A stretch of DNA of 64,000 nucleotides, from positions 186,001 to 250,000 of the forward strand of contig NZ_PGFE01000003.1 in assembly GCF_002797595.1 (NCBI RefSeq), written 5' to 3'. Positions 41,714 through 47,997 of this stretch are shown piece after piece. Position numbers and translations under genes: made by a program. The notes below the pieces were generated by a model. That model made no database searches, had not been told where the DNA came from, and was given only the letters and a program-made list of their open reading frames with translations. Positions within the stretch are counted from its first letter, which is position 1. Each line of letters opens with the position of its first letter. The DNA is from Sediminihabitans luteus (GTDB lineage: Bacteria > Actinomycetota > Actinomycetes > Actinomycetales > Cellulomonadaceae).

Positions 41714-43708
41714 CTACCCGAAGGTGAACGTGTAGACCGTCGCACCCGCGGGCAGCTCGAGCTCGACCGTGCCCGTCGTCGCACCCTCGCCCCGCAGCAC
41801 GTCGTACAGCGTCGGGTTGCCCGAGACCTCGATCTCGCGCGTCACGGGCTCGCCGCCGTCCGGCGTCACGGTCGCCCGCGCCGTCCCCTCGCCGCCCAGC
41901 ACCGCGAAGACGTTCGTCGCGTCGTACGCGAGCCGGACCGTCGCGCCGTCCTCGGTCGCGGTCGCCCCCTGGTGGTCGACGTCGAAACCGCCGTCGAGCG
42001 AGTAGGTGTCCTGCGGCTGGTCGGGGTTGGCGGTGTACTCGACCGGCCCGCCGTCGTACGCCGGCTCGCCGTCGTAGTTGAACGACTTGCTGATGCCGAA
42101 GTACGTCTCGGGCGTCGTCTCGTCGACCGGGGTCGCGTCGGCGACGTTCGTCGCGGGCGGCAGCTCGACCCCCGGGTTCGCGGCCGTCAGGAGCTCGCGG
42201 ATGTGCTTCTCCGTGGTCGCGTACCCGCCCTCGCCGAACTTGATGTGGCGCACCGTGCCGTCGGCGTCGATCAGGTACTCGGCGGGCCAGTAGCGGTTCC
42301 GGTAGGTCGTCCACGTCGAGTACGCGTTGTCCTGCGCGATCGGGTAGTCGACGCCCAGGTCCTTCGCGCCCTCGATCACGTTGCGCGTCTCGCGCTCGAA
42401 CGCGAACTCGGGCGTGTGCACCCCGATGACCTCCAGCCCGTAGTCCTCGTACGTGTCGTACCAGGCCGCGACGTTGGGGATCGCGCGCTGGCAGTTGATG
42501 CAGGAGTACGTCCAGAAGTCGAGCAGCACGACCTTGCCGCGCAGGTCCGCGAGCGCGATCGGCGACTCGTCGGGCGTGTTGAGCCACTGCGTGATGCCCG
42601 TGAGCTCGGGCGCGGTGCCGCAGCTCTCGAGCTCCTCGCCACCGTTCGAGCACTTCGACAGCTCGCGGTTCTCGTCCGTGACGATCCCCCCGAGGTCGAG
42701 CGCCTCGCGCACCGCGGCGTTGTCGTCGACCTGCTCCTGGAGCGCACCCGTGTAGTCCGGCAGCGCGCGCTGCAGCGCGGCCGGGAGGTCGAGCGCGAGC
42801 GCCGCCGCGAGCGCGATCATCACGACGCCGCCCGTGATCCGGATGCCCCGCTGGTGCGTGCGGAAGCTCTTGACCCGCTCGGCCACGCGTCGTCCGGCCA
42901 GGGCGAACACGAGCAGCGGGATCGCCGCACCGATCGCGAAGCTCAGCGTGAGAGCGACCGTCCCCGGGCCGATGTTGCCCGTCGCGCCCGCGACCGTGAT
43001 CGCGGCGAGCACCGGGCCCGCGCACGGCACGTACAGCACGCCGAGACCGAGGCCCAGCAGGAACGCACCCTTGTCGGGGTTCGAGCGCCGCCCGGCACGA
43101 CGCGAGCCGATCGCCGCGATCTTCTGGAACGGGCGCTCGAGCACCTCCTCGAACCGCGGCACGATCATCCCGACGCCGATCGCGGCGAGCAGCACGATCC
43201 CGAGCCAGCGCAGCAGGTCCTGCGGCAGGCCGAGCGCCGTGAGCAGCAGCGACCCGAGCAGCGTGAACACGCTGAAGCTCAGCACGAGGCCCAGGATCAC
43301 GAGGTACGGGCGCCACGAGCGGCGGCCGGGCCCGTCCGGTGCCGGACGACGGTCGGGGTCGTCCGCCGTCGGACGACGGTCGGCCCGGTCCCCCGCAGGT
43401 CGCGAGCTCGCGGCCGGGGCGGTCGCCGTCACGACCGCGCCGCGCGCACCGATGCTGACCGTGCCGGGCGCGCCCGCGAAGAGGCTGGGCGAGGGCGCCG
43501 CGGTGGTCGCCGACGACCCGGCCGCGGCGGCGTCGTCCGACGACGGCCGGTCAGCCGGGGCGTCGTCCGAGGAGCCGGCCGGGGTGCCGGGATTACGGGC
43601 GCCCTGCACGCCGCCCGCGAAGAAGATCACCGGGAGCATCGGCAGGATGCACGGGGAGATGCCGGTGATCAGGCCGCCGAGGAGGCCGATGAGGATCAGG
43701 GTTTCCAT
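41714..43708 (-). CDS. dipZ: DipZ-type thiol-disulfide protein (CcdA + thioredoxin + C-terminal domain)
   Basis: 664 residues from ATG 43708. An N-terminal CcdA/DsbD-like membrane domain has Cys20 in [10 protein letters not shown] and the second Cys in [11 protein letters not shown]; an insert of about 100 low-complexity residues lies in the first loop. Then comes a thioredoxin-like domain with [10 protein letters not shown] (Cys403/Cys406), and a C-terminal beta domain with GATVYTFTF, as in mycobacterial DipZ. Electrons should pass from inside to the thioredoxin domain outside. In Mycobacterium, dipZ lies between mpt70 and mpt83 under SigK; here a matching promoter precedes it (43715-43742). 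Confidence 0.92.
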
Positions 43709-43714
43709 GCCGGT

Positions 43715-43742
43715 GGTTCGGTGCGGACCGCTCCCGGGATGG
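43715..43742 (-). promoter_or_regulatory. SigK-type promoter of dipZ
   Basis: On the minus strand: CCATCC (complement of 43737-43742), 15 nt, CCGAACC (complement of 43715-43721), then 6 nt to the ATG. Agrees with the mycobacterial SigK consensus CCATCC-N15-CCGAATC as I recall it. Predicts a leaderless dipZ transcript. Confidence 0.8.
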
Positions 43743-43750
43743 GCGCGGGC

Positions 43751-44368
43751 TCAGCGCGTGCGGACCGTCGTGACGATGCGCGTCGCGCACGGACGGCGCG
43801 GGCTCGACCCGAAGCCGAACCGCACGGGCGGGTCGACGTCCGCGAGCGCCCCGAGGTCCGCGCCGTCCCAGCGCGCCTCGACGTCCAGGACCCGGCGGAC
43901 GTCGGTCGCGCCGTAGGCCTCGTGCCGCCCGCTCCCGGCCGTCCCGTACGTCCGCAGCCCGAGCACGCGCGCGAGCGGGTCGACGGCGCGCGCGAACCCG
44001 ACCGACCGCGCCACGCGGGCGGGCACGAGCCGGACCGCCCGGCCCAGCGGCGTCCGCGGCCCGGTCCGCACGACGGCGGTGAGCGGGCCCGCGCGCACGG
44101 TCAGCCGCTGCGGGCGCGACGCGGGACCGAGCGCGGGGACGGCGTCCGACACCACGGAGGACTCGACGACCTCGTCGAACGAGTACGTCGCGGCCACGAA
44201 CTCCGCGACGTCGGGCGGCGCGACCAGCACGCGGTGGCCGTCGGGGCGCTCGACCATGACGTCCGCGAACCGCCCGAACGGCGACGCCCACCAGTCGCCC
44301 ACGACGACGCGCGTGCCCGACGCCGTGCCGAACCCGATGATCTGGCCGTCGAACCGCTCGTCACCCAT
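43751..44368 (-). CDS. Conserved actinobacterial protein, function unknown
   Basis: 205 residues from ATG 44368. The N-terminal half has a pattern I associate with a conserved actinobacterial family: IIGFGTASGTRVVVGDWWASPFG, FADVMVERPDGHRVLVAP, then YSFDEVV. The second half is Arg/Val-rich. No membrane segment. It lies divergent from the fasciclin gene and 42 bp upstream of dipZ on the same strand, so it may read through into dipZ as well. Confidence 0.65.
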   Translation of the reverse strand: MGDERFDGQIIGFGTASGTRVVVGDWWASPFGRFADVMVERPDGHRVLVAPPDVAEFVAATYSFDEVVESSVVSDAVPALGPASRPQRLTVRAGPLTAVVRTGPRTPLGRAVRLVPARVARSVGFARAVDPLARVLGLRTYGTAGSGRHEAYGATDVRRVLDVEARWDGADLGALADVDPPVRFGFGSSPRRPCATRIVTTVRTR

Positions 44369-44392
44369 CGCAGAAGTTTCTCGCGATCCGAC

Positions 44393-44420
44393 CCATCCGG
44401 TGCGGCGGGGGCTCCGAACC
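44393..44420 (+). promoter_or_regulatory. SigK-type promoter of the fasciclin gene
   Basis: CCATCC (44393-44398), 15 nt, CCGAACC (44414-44420). Start codon 50 nt further on, with a GGAGAG ribosome site. Confidence 0.82.
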
Positions 44421-44470
44421 CCCGGTGAAACGCCCCGCAGGACGTGGGGCGACGACGCGAGGAGAGACCG

Positions 44471-45154
44471 ATGAACGTTCGTACCCGTTCCGCCGCCGCT
44501 GCCACCACGTTCGCCGCGCTCGCGGTGTTCGGCCTGGCCGCCTGCTCCGACGACAGCACCGACGCGGGCGCGTCGAGCGACGACTCCGCGATGACCGAGG
44601 AGTCCATGCCCGCCGAGACGCCCATGGACGACATGGAGTCCGACATGAGCGTCGACCCCGCCGCGAACCTCGTGGGCCCCGGCTGCTCCGACTACGCCGC
44701 CGCCGTCCCCGACGGCGCGGGCTCCATCACCGGCATGTCGGCCGACCCGGTCGCGGTCGCGGCGTCCAACAACCCGCTGCTGACGACGCTCGTCTCGGCC
44801 GTGAGCGGCGAGCTCAACCCTGACGTGAACCTCGTCGACACGCTCAACGGTGACGAGTTCACCGTGTTCGCGCCCGTCGACGACGCGTTCGCCAAGGTCG
44901 ACGCCGGCACGCTCGACACGCTCTCGACCGACGCCGACCTCCTGACCTCGGTGCTGACCTACCACGTGGTGCCCGGCCAGATCGCGCCGGACGACATCGT
45001 GGGCGAGCACACCACCGTCGAGGGCGACACCGTGACCGTGACCGGCTCGGGCGACGAGCTCAAGGTCGACGACGCGAACGTGATCTGCGGTGGCGTCGTG
45101 ACGCAGAACGCGACCGTCTACCTCGTCGACTCGGTGCTCATGCCGAGCATGTGA
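44471..45154 (+). CDS. Fasciclin-domain lipoprotein (MPT83-like)
   Basis: 227 residues from ATG 44471. Lipoprotein signal with lipobox LAAC, then an Asp/Ser/Met-rich linker (five Met within about 20 residues) and a single fasciclin domain: [21 protein letters not shown] (H1-type), [10 protein letters not shown] (H2-type) and [12 protein letters not shown]. Close in layout to the mycobacterial surface antigens MPT83/MPT70, which are SigK-regulated. The Met-rich linker may be oxidisable, which would fit a neighbouring DipZ, but this is inference. Confidence 0.92.
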
Positions 45155-45282
45155 CCCCTCGGGCCCCGCGCCCGGGACCCGGGCCTCGCGCCCGCCGCCG
45201 TCGACGCGGGTCGACGGCCCCCGACCGGCCCGGCCGTCGCGCGTCCCCCAGGCGCGACGGCCGGGCCTTCGTGCGTACTGGT
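45155..45282. other. Gap after the fasciclin gene
   Basis: GC-rich with several short inverted repeats (GGGTCGACGGC, CGACGGCCGGGCC type) but no open gene. With the two repeats that follow it makes a gap of 284 bp before the methyltransferase gene. Confidence 0.4.
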
Positions 45283-45320
45283 GCGTGCGGGCTGGGGCGT
45301 GCGGGCTGGGGCGTGCGGGC
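45283..45320. repeat. 14-bp tandem repeat
   Basis: GCGTGCGGGCTGGG twice (45283-45296, 45297-45310) plus a partial third copy, running straight into the family A palindrome. Confidence 0.85.
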
Positions 45321-45370
45321 GTCACGTTCCGGCCCCTTCCCCGGGCGCCGACCGGGCCAGAAGGTGACGC
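45319..45370. repeat. Palindromic intergenic element, family A (copy 2)
   Basis: Arms GCGTCACGTTCCGGCCC (45319-45335) and GGGCCAGAAGGTGACGC (45354-45370), 15 of 17 paired. Between convergent fasciclin and methyltransferase genes. Confidence 0.82.
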
Positions 45371-45438
45371 TCGACGCCCACGACGAGCGGGTGCCCCCCG
45401 TTCGGAATGCACGCGACGCCGGAACGCACGCGTCGCCG

Positions 45439-46200
45439 TCAGCGGGGTCGACGCGCCTCGATCAGGTGGCGCGCGGAGTACGCGACGAACGGCCCCTCGG
45501 CCTCGATCTGCTCGTGCAGCGCGAGCAGCCGGTCCCGGTACGCGTCGACCGTGAACCCGGGGACCATCCAGATCACCTTGCGCAGGAAGTACACGACCGC
45601 CCCGACGTCGAAGAACTCGACGCGCAGCCGCTCGGCGCGCAGGTCGACGACCTCGAGGCCTGCCGCCCGTGCCGCCGCGGCCTCGTCGTCGTGGTGCCGC
45701 CCCCGGCGCGCCTCTGGCTGCGGCCCGAGGAAGAGCTCCACGAGCTCGAACACGCTCGCGGGCCCCACGTGCTGCGCCAGGTAGGTGCCGCCGGGGCGCA
45801 GCACGCGCGCGATCTCGCCCCACCACGGGACCACGGGATGCCTGCTCGTGACGAGGTCGAACGCGGCGTCCGCGAACGGCAGGGGTGGCTCGTCGTGGTC
45901 GGCCACCACCACGATCCCGCGCGGGTGCAGCAGTTCGGTCGCCTTCGCGACGTTGGGCGGCCACGACTCGGTCGCCACGGCGACGCGCGGGACGCTCCCG
46001 ACCGTCGCGAGCACCTCGCCGCCGCCGGTCTGGAGGTCGAGCGCGGCGTCGGCGTCGGCCCACCGGGCGGCCATCGTGCGCGCGTAGCCCCACGACGGGC
46101 GTTCCTCGGTCGCGCGGCCGTCGAGCCAGGAGAAGTCCCAGCCGTCGACGGGCGCGGCCTCGGCCTCGGCGATCAGGTCGTCGACCGTGCGTGCGCTCAT
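45439..46200 (-). CDS. Class I SAM-dependent methyltransferase
   Basis: 253 residues from ATG 46200. Motif I reads ALDLQTGGGEVLA, motif II VVADHDEPPLPFADAAFDLV and motif III EIARVLRPGGTYLAQHVG, the usual pattern of small-molecule methyltransferases. Substrate unknown. It is flanked on both sides by family A palindromes (45319, 46232) in the same order, so the gene could move or be lost by recombination between them. Confidence 0.8.
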   Translation of the reverse strand: MSARTVDDLIAEAEAAPVDGWDFSWLDGRATEERPSWGYARTMAARWADADAALDLQTGGGEVLATVGSVPRVAVATESWPPNVAKATELLHPRGIVVVADHDEPPLPFADAAFDLVTSRHPVVPWWGEIARVLRPGGTYLAQHVGPASVFELVELFLGPQPEARRGRHHDDEAAAARAAGLEVVDLRAERLRVEFFDVGAVVYFLRKVIWMVPGFTVDAYRDRLLALHEQIEAEGPFVAYSARHLIEARRPR

Positions 46201-46231
46201 GCCTCCATGGTGGCGCACCCGTGGCTCGCGG

Positions 46232-46283
46232 GCGTCACGTCCTGGCCCGTTCGCACGCCCGGCATCGGGCCAGAAGGTGACGC
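46232..46283. repeat. Palindromic intergenic element, family A (copy 3)
   Basis: Left arm GCGTCACGTCCTGGCCC (46232-46248), right arm GGGCCAGAAGGTGACGC (46267-46283). The right arm is identical to copy 2. Confidence 0.85.
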
Positions 46284-46339
46284 TCGGCCGCACGGGGCCC
46301 GGGGCGGACGACGCACGCGTCGCGCGGCGATCTCCGCCG

Positions 46340-46395
46340 GTCGAACCGGCGATCATGGTCGGTGCGGGGGTCCTTACCGACCATGATCGCCGGTT
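46340..46395. repeat. Palindromic intergenic element, family B (copy 1)
   Basis: A 22-bp perfect inverted repeat (left arm starts CGAACCGGCGATCATGG) with a 12-nt spacer, 35 nt after the rskA stop. It probably ends the sigK-rskA transcript. Confidence 0.88.
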
Positions 46396-46429
46396 CGGCA
46401 CCGGAGGCGGGCGGGGAGGGCAGGCCGGG

Positions 46430-47269
46430 TCAGGTCTGCAGCGCCACGATCGGGTCGGACGTCGGCTGGTCGGAGCCGCCCGCCGGCTCGAGCGTCATCG
46501 CGACGACCTCGCCCGCGGCAGCCTCGACGAGGGCCTGCGGGTCGTCGGCGTCGAACAGCCCGGCCGACGTCGCAGCGCCGTCCGCGACGATCCACAGCTG
46601 GTAGTCCTCGTCCTCGCCCGTGCCGGGCAGCCCCGACGCGGTGAACAGCACGTCGCCGTCCGCGACGAGCGCGCTCGCCTCGCCGCCCCCGGCGACCGGG
46701 CTCGTGACGAGCCGCGCGTCCGGGTCGGCGAGCATCTGCGCGACGCGGTCGACCTGCGCCTGGAGCTGGACCTGCGTCTGATGGGTCTGCACGGCGATGC
46801 CCGTCGGCACCGCGACCGCGACGATCGCGGCCGCCGCCGCGGCGACCAGCCAGTTCCGGCGGCGTCGCGCCCCGATCGGCACCACGTTCGACGGCGCGTC
46901 GTCAGCCATGTCGGACGACGCGGGGCCGGCCGTGTCGGACGACGCGCGGTCCGCCGTGCCAGCCGTCGAGCCGATCGCAGCGATCGGAGCTGCGGACGGC
47001 GCGCTCCCGAGCACTGGGGTCGCCGCCGCGTCGGTGCCGGCCGTGAGCGCGGCCACGCGGGCGAGCACGTCGGCGCGCACGTCGGCGGAGGGCGCGGCGT
47101 CCACGACGAACGCCGCCACGGACTCACGGAGCTCGTCGAGCTCACGCCGGGCCGCGTCGTCCGACGCCACGAGCGACTCGACGGCGCGAGCCTCGGCGTC
47201 GGTCACGGCGTCGAGCGCGTAGGCAGGGATCAGGTCGCGGACCGCCTGGCGGTCGAGGTCGTCAGCCAC
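46430..47269 (-). CDS. rskA: Anti-sigma-K factor
   Basis: 279 residues from GTG 47269, which overlaps the sigK stop by 8 nt. N-terminal anti-sigma domain MADDLDRQAVRDLIPAYALD, an Ala/Ser-rich link, one membrane helix (about 135-158, RRRRNWLVAAAAAAIVAVAV) and an outside RskA_C domain with YQLWIVADG and AMTLEPAGGS. The zinc-binding HxxxCxxC of other ZAS proteins is absent, as in mycobacterial RskA. It should hold SigK at the membrane until cleaved after an outside signal. Confidence 0.9.
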   Translation of the reverse strand: MADDLDRQAVRDLIPAYALDAVTDAEARAVESLVASDDAARRELDELRESVAAFVVDAAPSADVRADVLARVAALTAGTDAAATPVLGSAPSAAPIAAIGSTAGTADRASSDTAGPASSDMADDAPSNVVPIGARRRRNWLVAAAAAAIVAVAVPTGIAVQTHQTQVQLQAQVDRVAQMLADPDARLVTSPVAGGGEASALVADGDVLFTASGLPGTGEDEDYQLWIVADGAATSAGLFDADDPQALVEAAAGEVVAMTLEPAGGSDQPTSDPIVALQT

Positions 47270-47864
47270 GGTTCACCCCCAGGCAGTCGCGGAGCCGGAT
47301 CAGTCCGTCGCGGATGCGGGACTTGACGGTCGGGAGCGCGGCGCCGAGCCCCTCGGCGACCTCGCGGTAGGTCAGGTCGCCGTAGTAGGCGCGCACGACG
47401 GCGTCGCGCTGGGTCTCGGTGAGCGTGTCGAGGCAGTCGCGCACGGCCGACCGGTCGAGGCCGCGCTCGACCTCCTCGGCGACGACGTCGCGCTCGGCGC
47501 CGACGGTGCTCGCGTCGAGGTCCTTCTGGTCACGCGCACGGCGCGACTGCTCGGAGCGCACGCGGTCGATCGCGCGGCGCCGCGTGAGCGTGACCGCCCA
47601 CGTGCGGGCCGACCCGCGGGTCGCGTCGAAGCGCGCTGCCGTCTGCCACACCTCGACCATCACCTCCTGGGTCACCTCGGCCGCGTGGTCCCGGTCGCGC
47701 AGGACCGCGAGCGCCGCCCCGAACACGGACGGGCTCAACGCGTCGTACACCGGCGCGAACGCGTCAGGGTCGCCGCCGGCGCACGCCGCGAGGGCGGCGT
47801 CCAGCGCGTCGGGTTCGGTCGTCCTGGCGTTCGGCACGGGCCCAGTCTGCCTCAGACGGGGCAC
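47262..47864 (-). CDS. sigK: ECF sigma factor SigK
   Basis: 200 residues from GTG 47864, or 191 from GTG 47837; the upstream promoter ends 4 nt before the first GTG, which makes the second start also possible. Region 2 AAEVTQEVMVEVWQTAARFD with TWAVTLTRRRAIDRVRSEQSR, and region 4 LTETQRDAVVRAYYGDLTYREVA and TVKSRIRDGLIRL. Pairs with RskA. Its own promoter has the same CCATCC-N15 layout as the two target genes, so it is probably autoregulated. Confidence 0.93.
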   Translation of the reverse strand: MPRLRQTGPVPNARTTEPDALDAALAACAGGDPDAFAPVYDALSPSVFGAALAVLRDRDHAAEVTQEVMVEVWQTAARFDATRGSARTWAVTLTRRRAIDRVRSEQSRRARDQKDLDASTVGAERDVVAEEVERGLDRSAVRDCLDTLTETQRDAVVRAYYGDLTYREVAEGLGAALPTVKSRIRDGLIRLRDCLGVNRG

Positions 47865-47868
47865 ACGT

Positions 47869-47896
47869 GGTTCGAGGCCGACGCGGTCCCGGATGG
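47869..47896 (-). promoter_or_regulatory. SigK-type promoter of sigK-rskA
   Basis: Minus strand: CCATCC (complement of 47891-47896), 15 nt, TCGAACC (complement of 47869-47875). First base of the -10 differs from the other two copies. Confidence 0.75.
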
Positions 47897-47937: not shown

Positions 47938-47997
47938 GCCGAACCGGCGATCGTGGTCGGCCAGAAGCCCTGGAACGACCACGATCGCCGGTTCGGC
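47938..47997. repeat. Palindromic intergenic element, family B (copy 2)
   Basis: A 22-bp perfect inverted repeat, left arm GCCGAACCGGCGATCGTGG... (47938-47959), right arm 47976-47997, 16-nt loop. A second left arm with small changes lies next to it (47916-47933). It follows the DAHP synthase gene by 33 nt. Confidence 0.88.

Follow-up and report, generated by a model that had tools for sequence, protein, structure and literature searches.

A stretch of 64,000 nucleotides (nt) from the Sediminihabitans luteus genome (contig NZ_PGFE01000003.1, positions 186,001 to 250,000; referred to as the window, with positions counted from its first nucleotide) holds the genes for the sigma factor SigK, its anti-sigma factor RskA, the thiol-disulfide exchanger DipZ and a fasciclin-domain lipoprotein (fas). 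Judged from the sequence, this is a real and conserved SigK/RskA regulon of a kind already known, since its promoter motif is conserved, the motif tracks SigK and the proteins match mycobacterial families. The best explanation, which we hold with high confidence, is an envelope-stress regulon with four predicted SigK promoters and six genes. The window contains three of these promoters, together with the following genes:

43715..43742, minus strand: SigK-type promoter of dipZ (exact match)
44393..44420, plus strand: SigK-type promoter of fas (exact match)
47869..47896, minus strand: SigK-type promoter of sigK-rskA (-35 CCATCC, N16, -10 CGAACC; exact match)
41714..43708, minus strand: dipZ, membrane thiol-disulfide exchanger (Pfam and PDB matches)
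44471..45154, plus strand: fas, fasciclin-domain lipoprotein of the MPT70/83 type with a Met-rich acidic tether (Pfam Fasciclin, 94.9 bits)
46430..47269, minus strand: rskA, membrane anti-sigma factor (Pfam RskA_C, 71.5 bits, cut-off 29.4)
47262..47837, minus strand: sigK, extracytoplasmic function (ECF) sigma factor (NCBIfam SigK, PDB 4nqw match, conserved C144/C194)

An exact pattern search of the window places the three promoter sites at the coordinates and on the strands given in the initial annotation. After shuffling, the window contains 0.04 motif matches on average, and three or more matches were obtained in 0 of 100 shuffles. Searching the entire genome (3,421,787 bases in 9 contigs) yields four copies of CCATCC-N16-CGAACC against none for the backwards control, the fourth being located on contig C2 (189020-189047). 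All four are directly upstream of a correctly oriented gene. The many unrelated genome matches named at the outset as an outcome that would speak against the proposal did not occur. Adding a leading C (CCCATCC) gives the same four sites at zero mismatches and seven more at one mismatch; with up to two mismatches there are 149 sites against 60 for the control. No convincing further target was found among the seven one-mismatch sites. Each of these shares sequence with a long open frame on one or both strands; the status of one of them (L175, contig C7) is left uncertain.

Conservation was analyzed using a sigK search of the named genome contigs, which gave 48 loci (49 with the window added). 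A gene was scored for CCATCC-N15-17-CGAAC within 330 nt upstream, excluding loci where the gene was absent or its N-terminus uncovered (2 of 49 for sigK, 11 for fas including three from Nocardia, and 12 for dipZ). This comparison of the block across relatives, proposed in the initial annotation, shows that the motif is kept before sigK in 44 of 47 loci, before fas in 38 of 38 and before dipZ in 32 of 37. The spacing is N16 in nearly all cases (43/44 sigK, 35/38 fas and 32/32 dipZ sites). Two control patterns gave no matches upstream of these three genes, and shuffled upstream regions contained the motif in 5 out of 12,200 cases. It was also not found upstream of the other genes of these loci (DAHP 0/28, methyltransferase 0/3, RskA 0/41, FNT 0/5, and 0/10 for ORF205, an open reading frame (ORF) between dipZ and fas). 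Bases outside the search pattern are conserved as well, with a C before CCATCC in 111 and a C after CGAAC in 102 of 114 sites; the mean majority identity of the spacer positions is 0.66-0.68.

The dipZ sites show a further regularity. In 32 of 32 sites the ATG starts after 7 nt behind CGAAC (6 behind CGAACC), whereas a start codon is found at this distance in just 7 of 38 fas sites and 3 of 44 sigK sites. Given this fixed distance from the -10 element, the dipZ mRNA is probably leaderless. The five dipZ loci that lack the motif have CCGTCC or CCATCT as -35 (one base changed), with CGAAC and ATG at unchanged offsets. It might be argued that the sites match by chance or result from coding constraint in a genome rich in GC, and the loose motif CCATCC-N15-17-CGAAC is indeed common by chance (seven genome matches against six for the reversed control). 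Considering the counts for the full motif and the shuffled regions, the conservation across species and the fixed dipZ offset, the probability of this explanation is negligible. As a family-wide marker the loose motif was rejected: it matched 200 of 200 family genomes and is too permissive, and for this reason the stricter form CCATCC-N13-CTCCGAAC was used for genome scans.

Of 61 family genomes, 30 contain the strict motif, the backwards control being absent from every genome, and 32 contain SigK at an E-value of up to 1e-40. Both occur in 29 genomes, the motif only in one, SigK only in three and neither in 28 (Fisher 7e-13, uncorrected for ancestry). This association bears on a different reading, namely that these are true promoters used chiefly by another ECF sigma factor, with SigK adjacent by coincidence. 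ECF sigma factors can overlap in general, a loose SigK search returns 24 candidates in the genome (one of which passes 1e-40), and in two genomes of one other family (L149 and L150) the strict motif was seen by eye beside a different sigma/anti-sigma pair, near the end of the sigma gene and before an anti-sigma-like gene. Nevertheless, the motif is found upstream of sigK itself and tracks SigK over the 61 genomes, and according to PMC7509140 the mpt70 promoter is recognised by SigK orthologues of different species. We consider this reading very improbable. The same paper describes the SigK sites as highly conserved among Actinobacteria.

The sigK product, of the ECF18/19 type, passes the NCBIfam SigK model NF007228 with 233.5 bits against a cut-off of 226 (232.9 bits in the genome search), and the top match among solved structures is M. 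tuberculosis SigK (4nqw, E 1.4e-43). Its C144 and C194 (numbering of the long ORF) correspond in the alignment to the two matching cysteines of 4nqw; among aligned segments, C144 is conserved in 48 of 49 and C194 in 48 of 48. They are 50 residues apart, like the two redox cysteines C133 and C183 reported for M. tuberculosis SigK (PMC7509140). The GTG at 47837 is the more likely start, in preference to the longer ORF starting at 47864. Directly downstream, rskA overlaps with sigK. Six nt before the GTG lies a candidate second, housekeeping-type -10 element, CAGACT (47844..47849, minus strand); the arrangement CA[GC]ACT-N6-GTG near the sigK start is found in 41 of 48 sigK loci, which suggests a second, basal and leaderless sigK promoter. 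A palindromic repeat with half-site CGAACCGGCGATCRTGGTCG occurs twice in the block (46342-46397 and 47940-47995); the half-site has nine exact copies genome-wide against zero for the control.

DipZ consists of a DsbD/CcdA-type transmembrane part (Pfam DsbD_TM), a thioredoxin-like domain with a CINC motif and a C-terminal domain. Among solved structures its first match is M. tuberculosis DipZ (5cyy, E 4.7e-114), and it also matches 2hyx (E 5e-114); homology to the solved ectodomain, the DsbD-type membrane part and the CxxC are thus all found, and its six cysteines are kept in 35/35 to 37/37 aligned relatives. The N-terminal membrane part carries a long low-complexity insert (43320-43600, codons ~36-130); split alignments suggest that this insert is shorter in some relatives.

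For Fas the top structure is MPT70 (1nyo, E 1.7e-62). It has the fasciclin domain and two conserved cysteines of MPT70/MPT83 and the predicted lipoprotein signal of the MPT83 type: Cys72 and Cys206 are invariant (42/42), and Cys25 of the lipobox-like LAAC, the predicted lipidation site, is conserved in 34 of 34. The acidic tether contains 2-9 Met in 32 cleanly parsed Cellulomonas-group orthologues, which remain from 42 rows after setting apart six unparsed, one overlong and three Nocardia rows with one Met. The initial annotation proposed this Met-rich linker as a possible redox target; its conserved character does not by itself demonstrate such a function, and the same applies to the invariant cysteines of DipZ, Fas and CHRD.

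Family and structure-sequence searches thus confirm that the gene set corresponds to the families of the mycobacterial SigK/RskA regulon, as initially proposed. Sigma factor, anti-sigma factor, DipZ and fasciclin lipoprotein are common to both systems (mpt83-dipZ-mpt70 and Rv0449c-sigK-rskA in mycobacteria), and both SigK proteins have the two cysteines. The mycobacterial SigK consensus has CCATCC as -35 and CCGAAT as -10; the -35 is the same here, and the -10 is similar but reads CGAACC. A further difference is that the three known parts are grouped in a single block here, while M. bovis has two loci according to PMC10540498. The initial annotation put this block at 6 kb; dipZ, fas and sigK do lie together, but the outer sites span only ~4.2 kb. 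The motif is placed directly before sigK, whereas M. tuberculosis is said to autoregulate via the Rv0449c promoter (PMC7509140). PMC9861118 states that in mycobacteria mpt83, mpt70 and dipZ each possess a promoter that depends on SigK, and M. tuberculosis SigK is reported to control eleven genes, with RskA acting as both inhibitor and activator (PMC7509140). That source also describes a Yersinia enterocolitica SigK-RskA pair (ECF19) that acts on its species' mpt83 promoter; this Gram-negative system is likened here by description, not by sequence. The SigK treated in PMC9205884 is a different, SigB-type protein.

The initial annotation predicted that the sigma factor drives itself and two targets. 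Those three promoters are supported, but the list was incomplete: the fourth site, on contig C2 (L001), precedes a gene for a secreted CHRD-domain protein followed by an overlapping sortase gene, a pair that is extra relative to the mycobacterial regulon. The sortase passes the class F model NF033748 (194.4 bits, cut-off 166), and its presumed catalytic Cys233 is kept in 19 of 19 aligned segments. At its C-terminus the CHRD protein is similar to the GVDTG sorting domain NF058571, but the score of 25.3 bits is below the cut-off of 29. Compared with known class F sortases that have a dedicated substrate (NF033748, NF058571), the sortase is therefore alike and the sorting domain is not assigned. 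The cysteines C89 and C202 of the CHRD protein are invariant (19/19).

CHRD relatives occur in 19 of 61 genomes, one as a weak C-terminal match only. Twenty CHRD loci were taken and 19 counted, leaving out one without a CHRD alignment. CCATCC-N15-17-CGAAC precedes the gene in 16 of these 19; the others are each one base off (one with CGAAT, two with CCGTCC-N16-CGAAC). The promoter is conserved here too, and the sortase gene is present in 18 of 19 loci. When excluding the weak match, CHRD and SigK occur together in 17 genomes, CHRD alone in one, SigK alone in 15 and neither in 28 (p 1.4e-5). Genome G030 has a second CHRD copy with one stop codon. SigK control of the CHRD-class F sortase pair is a prediction of the present analysis. 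A literature search found no paper stating this link, though it left uncovered the founding 2008 comparison of SigK regulons, which may list some of the targets; searching for SigK with Cellulomonas also found no paper. The physiological roles of class F sortases are described as unknown in PMC13251363, and the conserved CHRD-sortase arm would offer a concrete regulatory setting for that class. Likewise, with a regulon this compact and conserved in soil actinobacteria, the SigK signal could be studied outside the tuberculosis bacteria.

The regulon could work as follows. By analogy with the published mycobacterial and Yersinia pairs, RskA would hold SigK at the membrane, while the basal and probably leaderless CAGACT-N6-GTG promoter would keep the pair present. 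An extracytoplasmic signal would then free SigK from RskA, and the freed SigK would read the observed motif CCCATCC-N16-CGAACC. It would thereby amplify sigK-rskA and switch on dipZ (as a leaderless mRNA), the Met-rich fasciclin lipoprotein, and the CHRD protein with its class F sortase, the latter probably anchoring the CHRD protein to the wall. DipZ in turn might transfer reducing equivalents through the membrane to the disulfide predicted for each of Fas and CHRD, forming or repairing it. This last step is proposed because the cysteines of Fas and CHRD are invariant and the genes appear co-regulated; the invariant pairs fit co-expression with DipZ.

Several observations weigh against a SigK regulon of this form. 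The Fisher value given above is too small because the genomes share ancestry, which overstates their independence. Five of the 32 SigK matches fall short of the curated cut-off, leaving 27 above it; also, three family genomes carry SigK without the strict motif. In three Nocardia loci no such motif is found within 330 nt of sigK, the sole motif match listed for them being a CGAAT form ~210 nt upstream of the start of the lipoprotein match. Genome G033 has the strict motif without a SigK match. Here the contig ends ~0.8 kb past the site, and the ORF at the site begins as a lipoprotein and continues as RskA-like sequence (47% over 69 residues, E 1e-5), suggesting that sigK may be lost or misassembled. 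Among the strict sites found in relatives (see below), five out of 45 are without an assigned target. Deletion of all four class F sortases in Actinoplanes missouriensis is reported to give no phenotype (PMC13251363), and in M. kansasii light raises the fasciclin genes mpk83/mpk70 but dipZ did not follow (PMC9861118).

The M. kansasii result also favors a narrower interpretation: SigK would control the genes as outlined above, yet DipZ and the lipoprotein would contribute separately to a general response of the envelope and not act on each other. The case for joint action, as predicted in the initial annotation, is based only on co-regulation, proximity and the invariant cysteines. On the other hand, all six DipZ cysteines are kept in the aligned relatives, Fas and CHRD each have an invariant pair, and a role of DipZ in making the MPT83/MPT70 disulfides has been proposed (PMC9861118). 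Separate action therefore has to be taken seriously, even if it falls somewhat short of being likely.

As to the signal, which PMC7509140 states to be unknown for SigK, SigK might serve widely among actinobacteria as a switch that responds to oxidative damage outside the cytoplasm (with light/singlet oxygen or copper as possible causes) and installs repairable surface proteins, the Met-rich fasciclin and CHRD, along with the thiol exchanger and class F sortase that belong to them. This extension is tentative and, in our view, rather unlikely. The hints are not decisive: in relatives the promoter is found before DUF1775, cupredoxin, DUF4383 and Met-rich lipoprotein genes, and the light response of M. 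kansasii (PMC9861118) and the response of the soil actinobacterium Act20 to ultraviolet light, reported to lower RskA (PMC8965627), would be in line with it. If true, it would give class F sortases their first stress-linked role.

The family scan listed 47 strict sites, 45 of which are outside the window's genome; all 45 were examined. According to BLAST they precede fas (16), CHRD (8), sigK (4) and dipZ (1). Other sites precede DUF4383 genes (four; Pfam was run on two and the others are alike by BLAST), small LuxR-type genes (three; Pfam run on two) and one DUF1775 gene. Three more (L102:614-1906, L103 and L104) precede Met-rich lipoprotein genes that are alike by BLAST; the one of these run against Pfam, from L102, gave no match. 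In L102 and L104 sigK follows within ~1.5 kb.

A scan of the phylum with the strict CTCCGAAY form listed 24 sites in 21 of 198 genomes, against four control matches. Two of these sites belong to the window's genome. Among the other 22, six show a match to SigK, RskA or Fas in the 3 kb examined and two are the sites beside another sigma/anti-sigma pair mentioned above, while 14 are without a SigK-type neighbor and may be due to chance. The sites with context precede sigK, a fasciclin gene, DUF1365 genes adjoining sigK and a cupredoxin lipoprotein gene. The last of these (L146:1535-1906) is small, encodes a cupredoxin-like lipoprotein behind a strict SigK-type promoter, and has a divergent sigK relative next to it.

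The gene content of the block as first described was incomplete, since two further reading frames lie inside, one a methyltransferase gene and the other an ORF with no family match; neither has the motif upstream. Together with a structure in the fas leader, the remaining features are:

43751..44368, minus strand: ORF205, between dipZ and fas, without Pfam or NCBIfam match
45439..46200, minus strand: methyltransferase gene (Pfam Methyltransf_11), not a predicted target
44431..44451, plus strand: conserved GCCCCG...CGGGGC hairpin in the fas 5' leader (32 aligned leaders)

Covariation was not counted for the hairpin because its stem is nearly invariant. The fas leader of the window is not unusually stable compared to its shuffles (z -1.44, with 21 of 200 shuffles as good).

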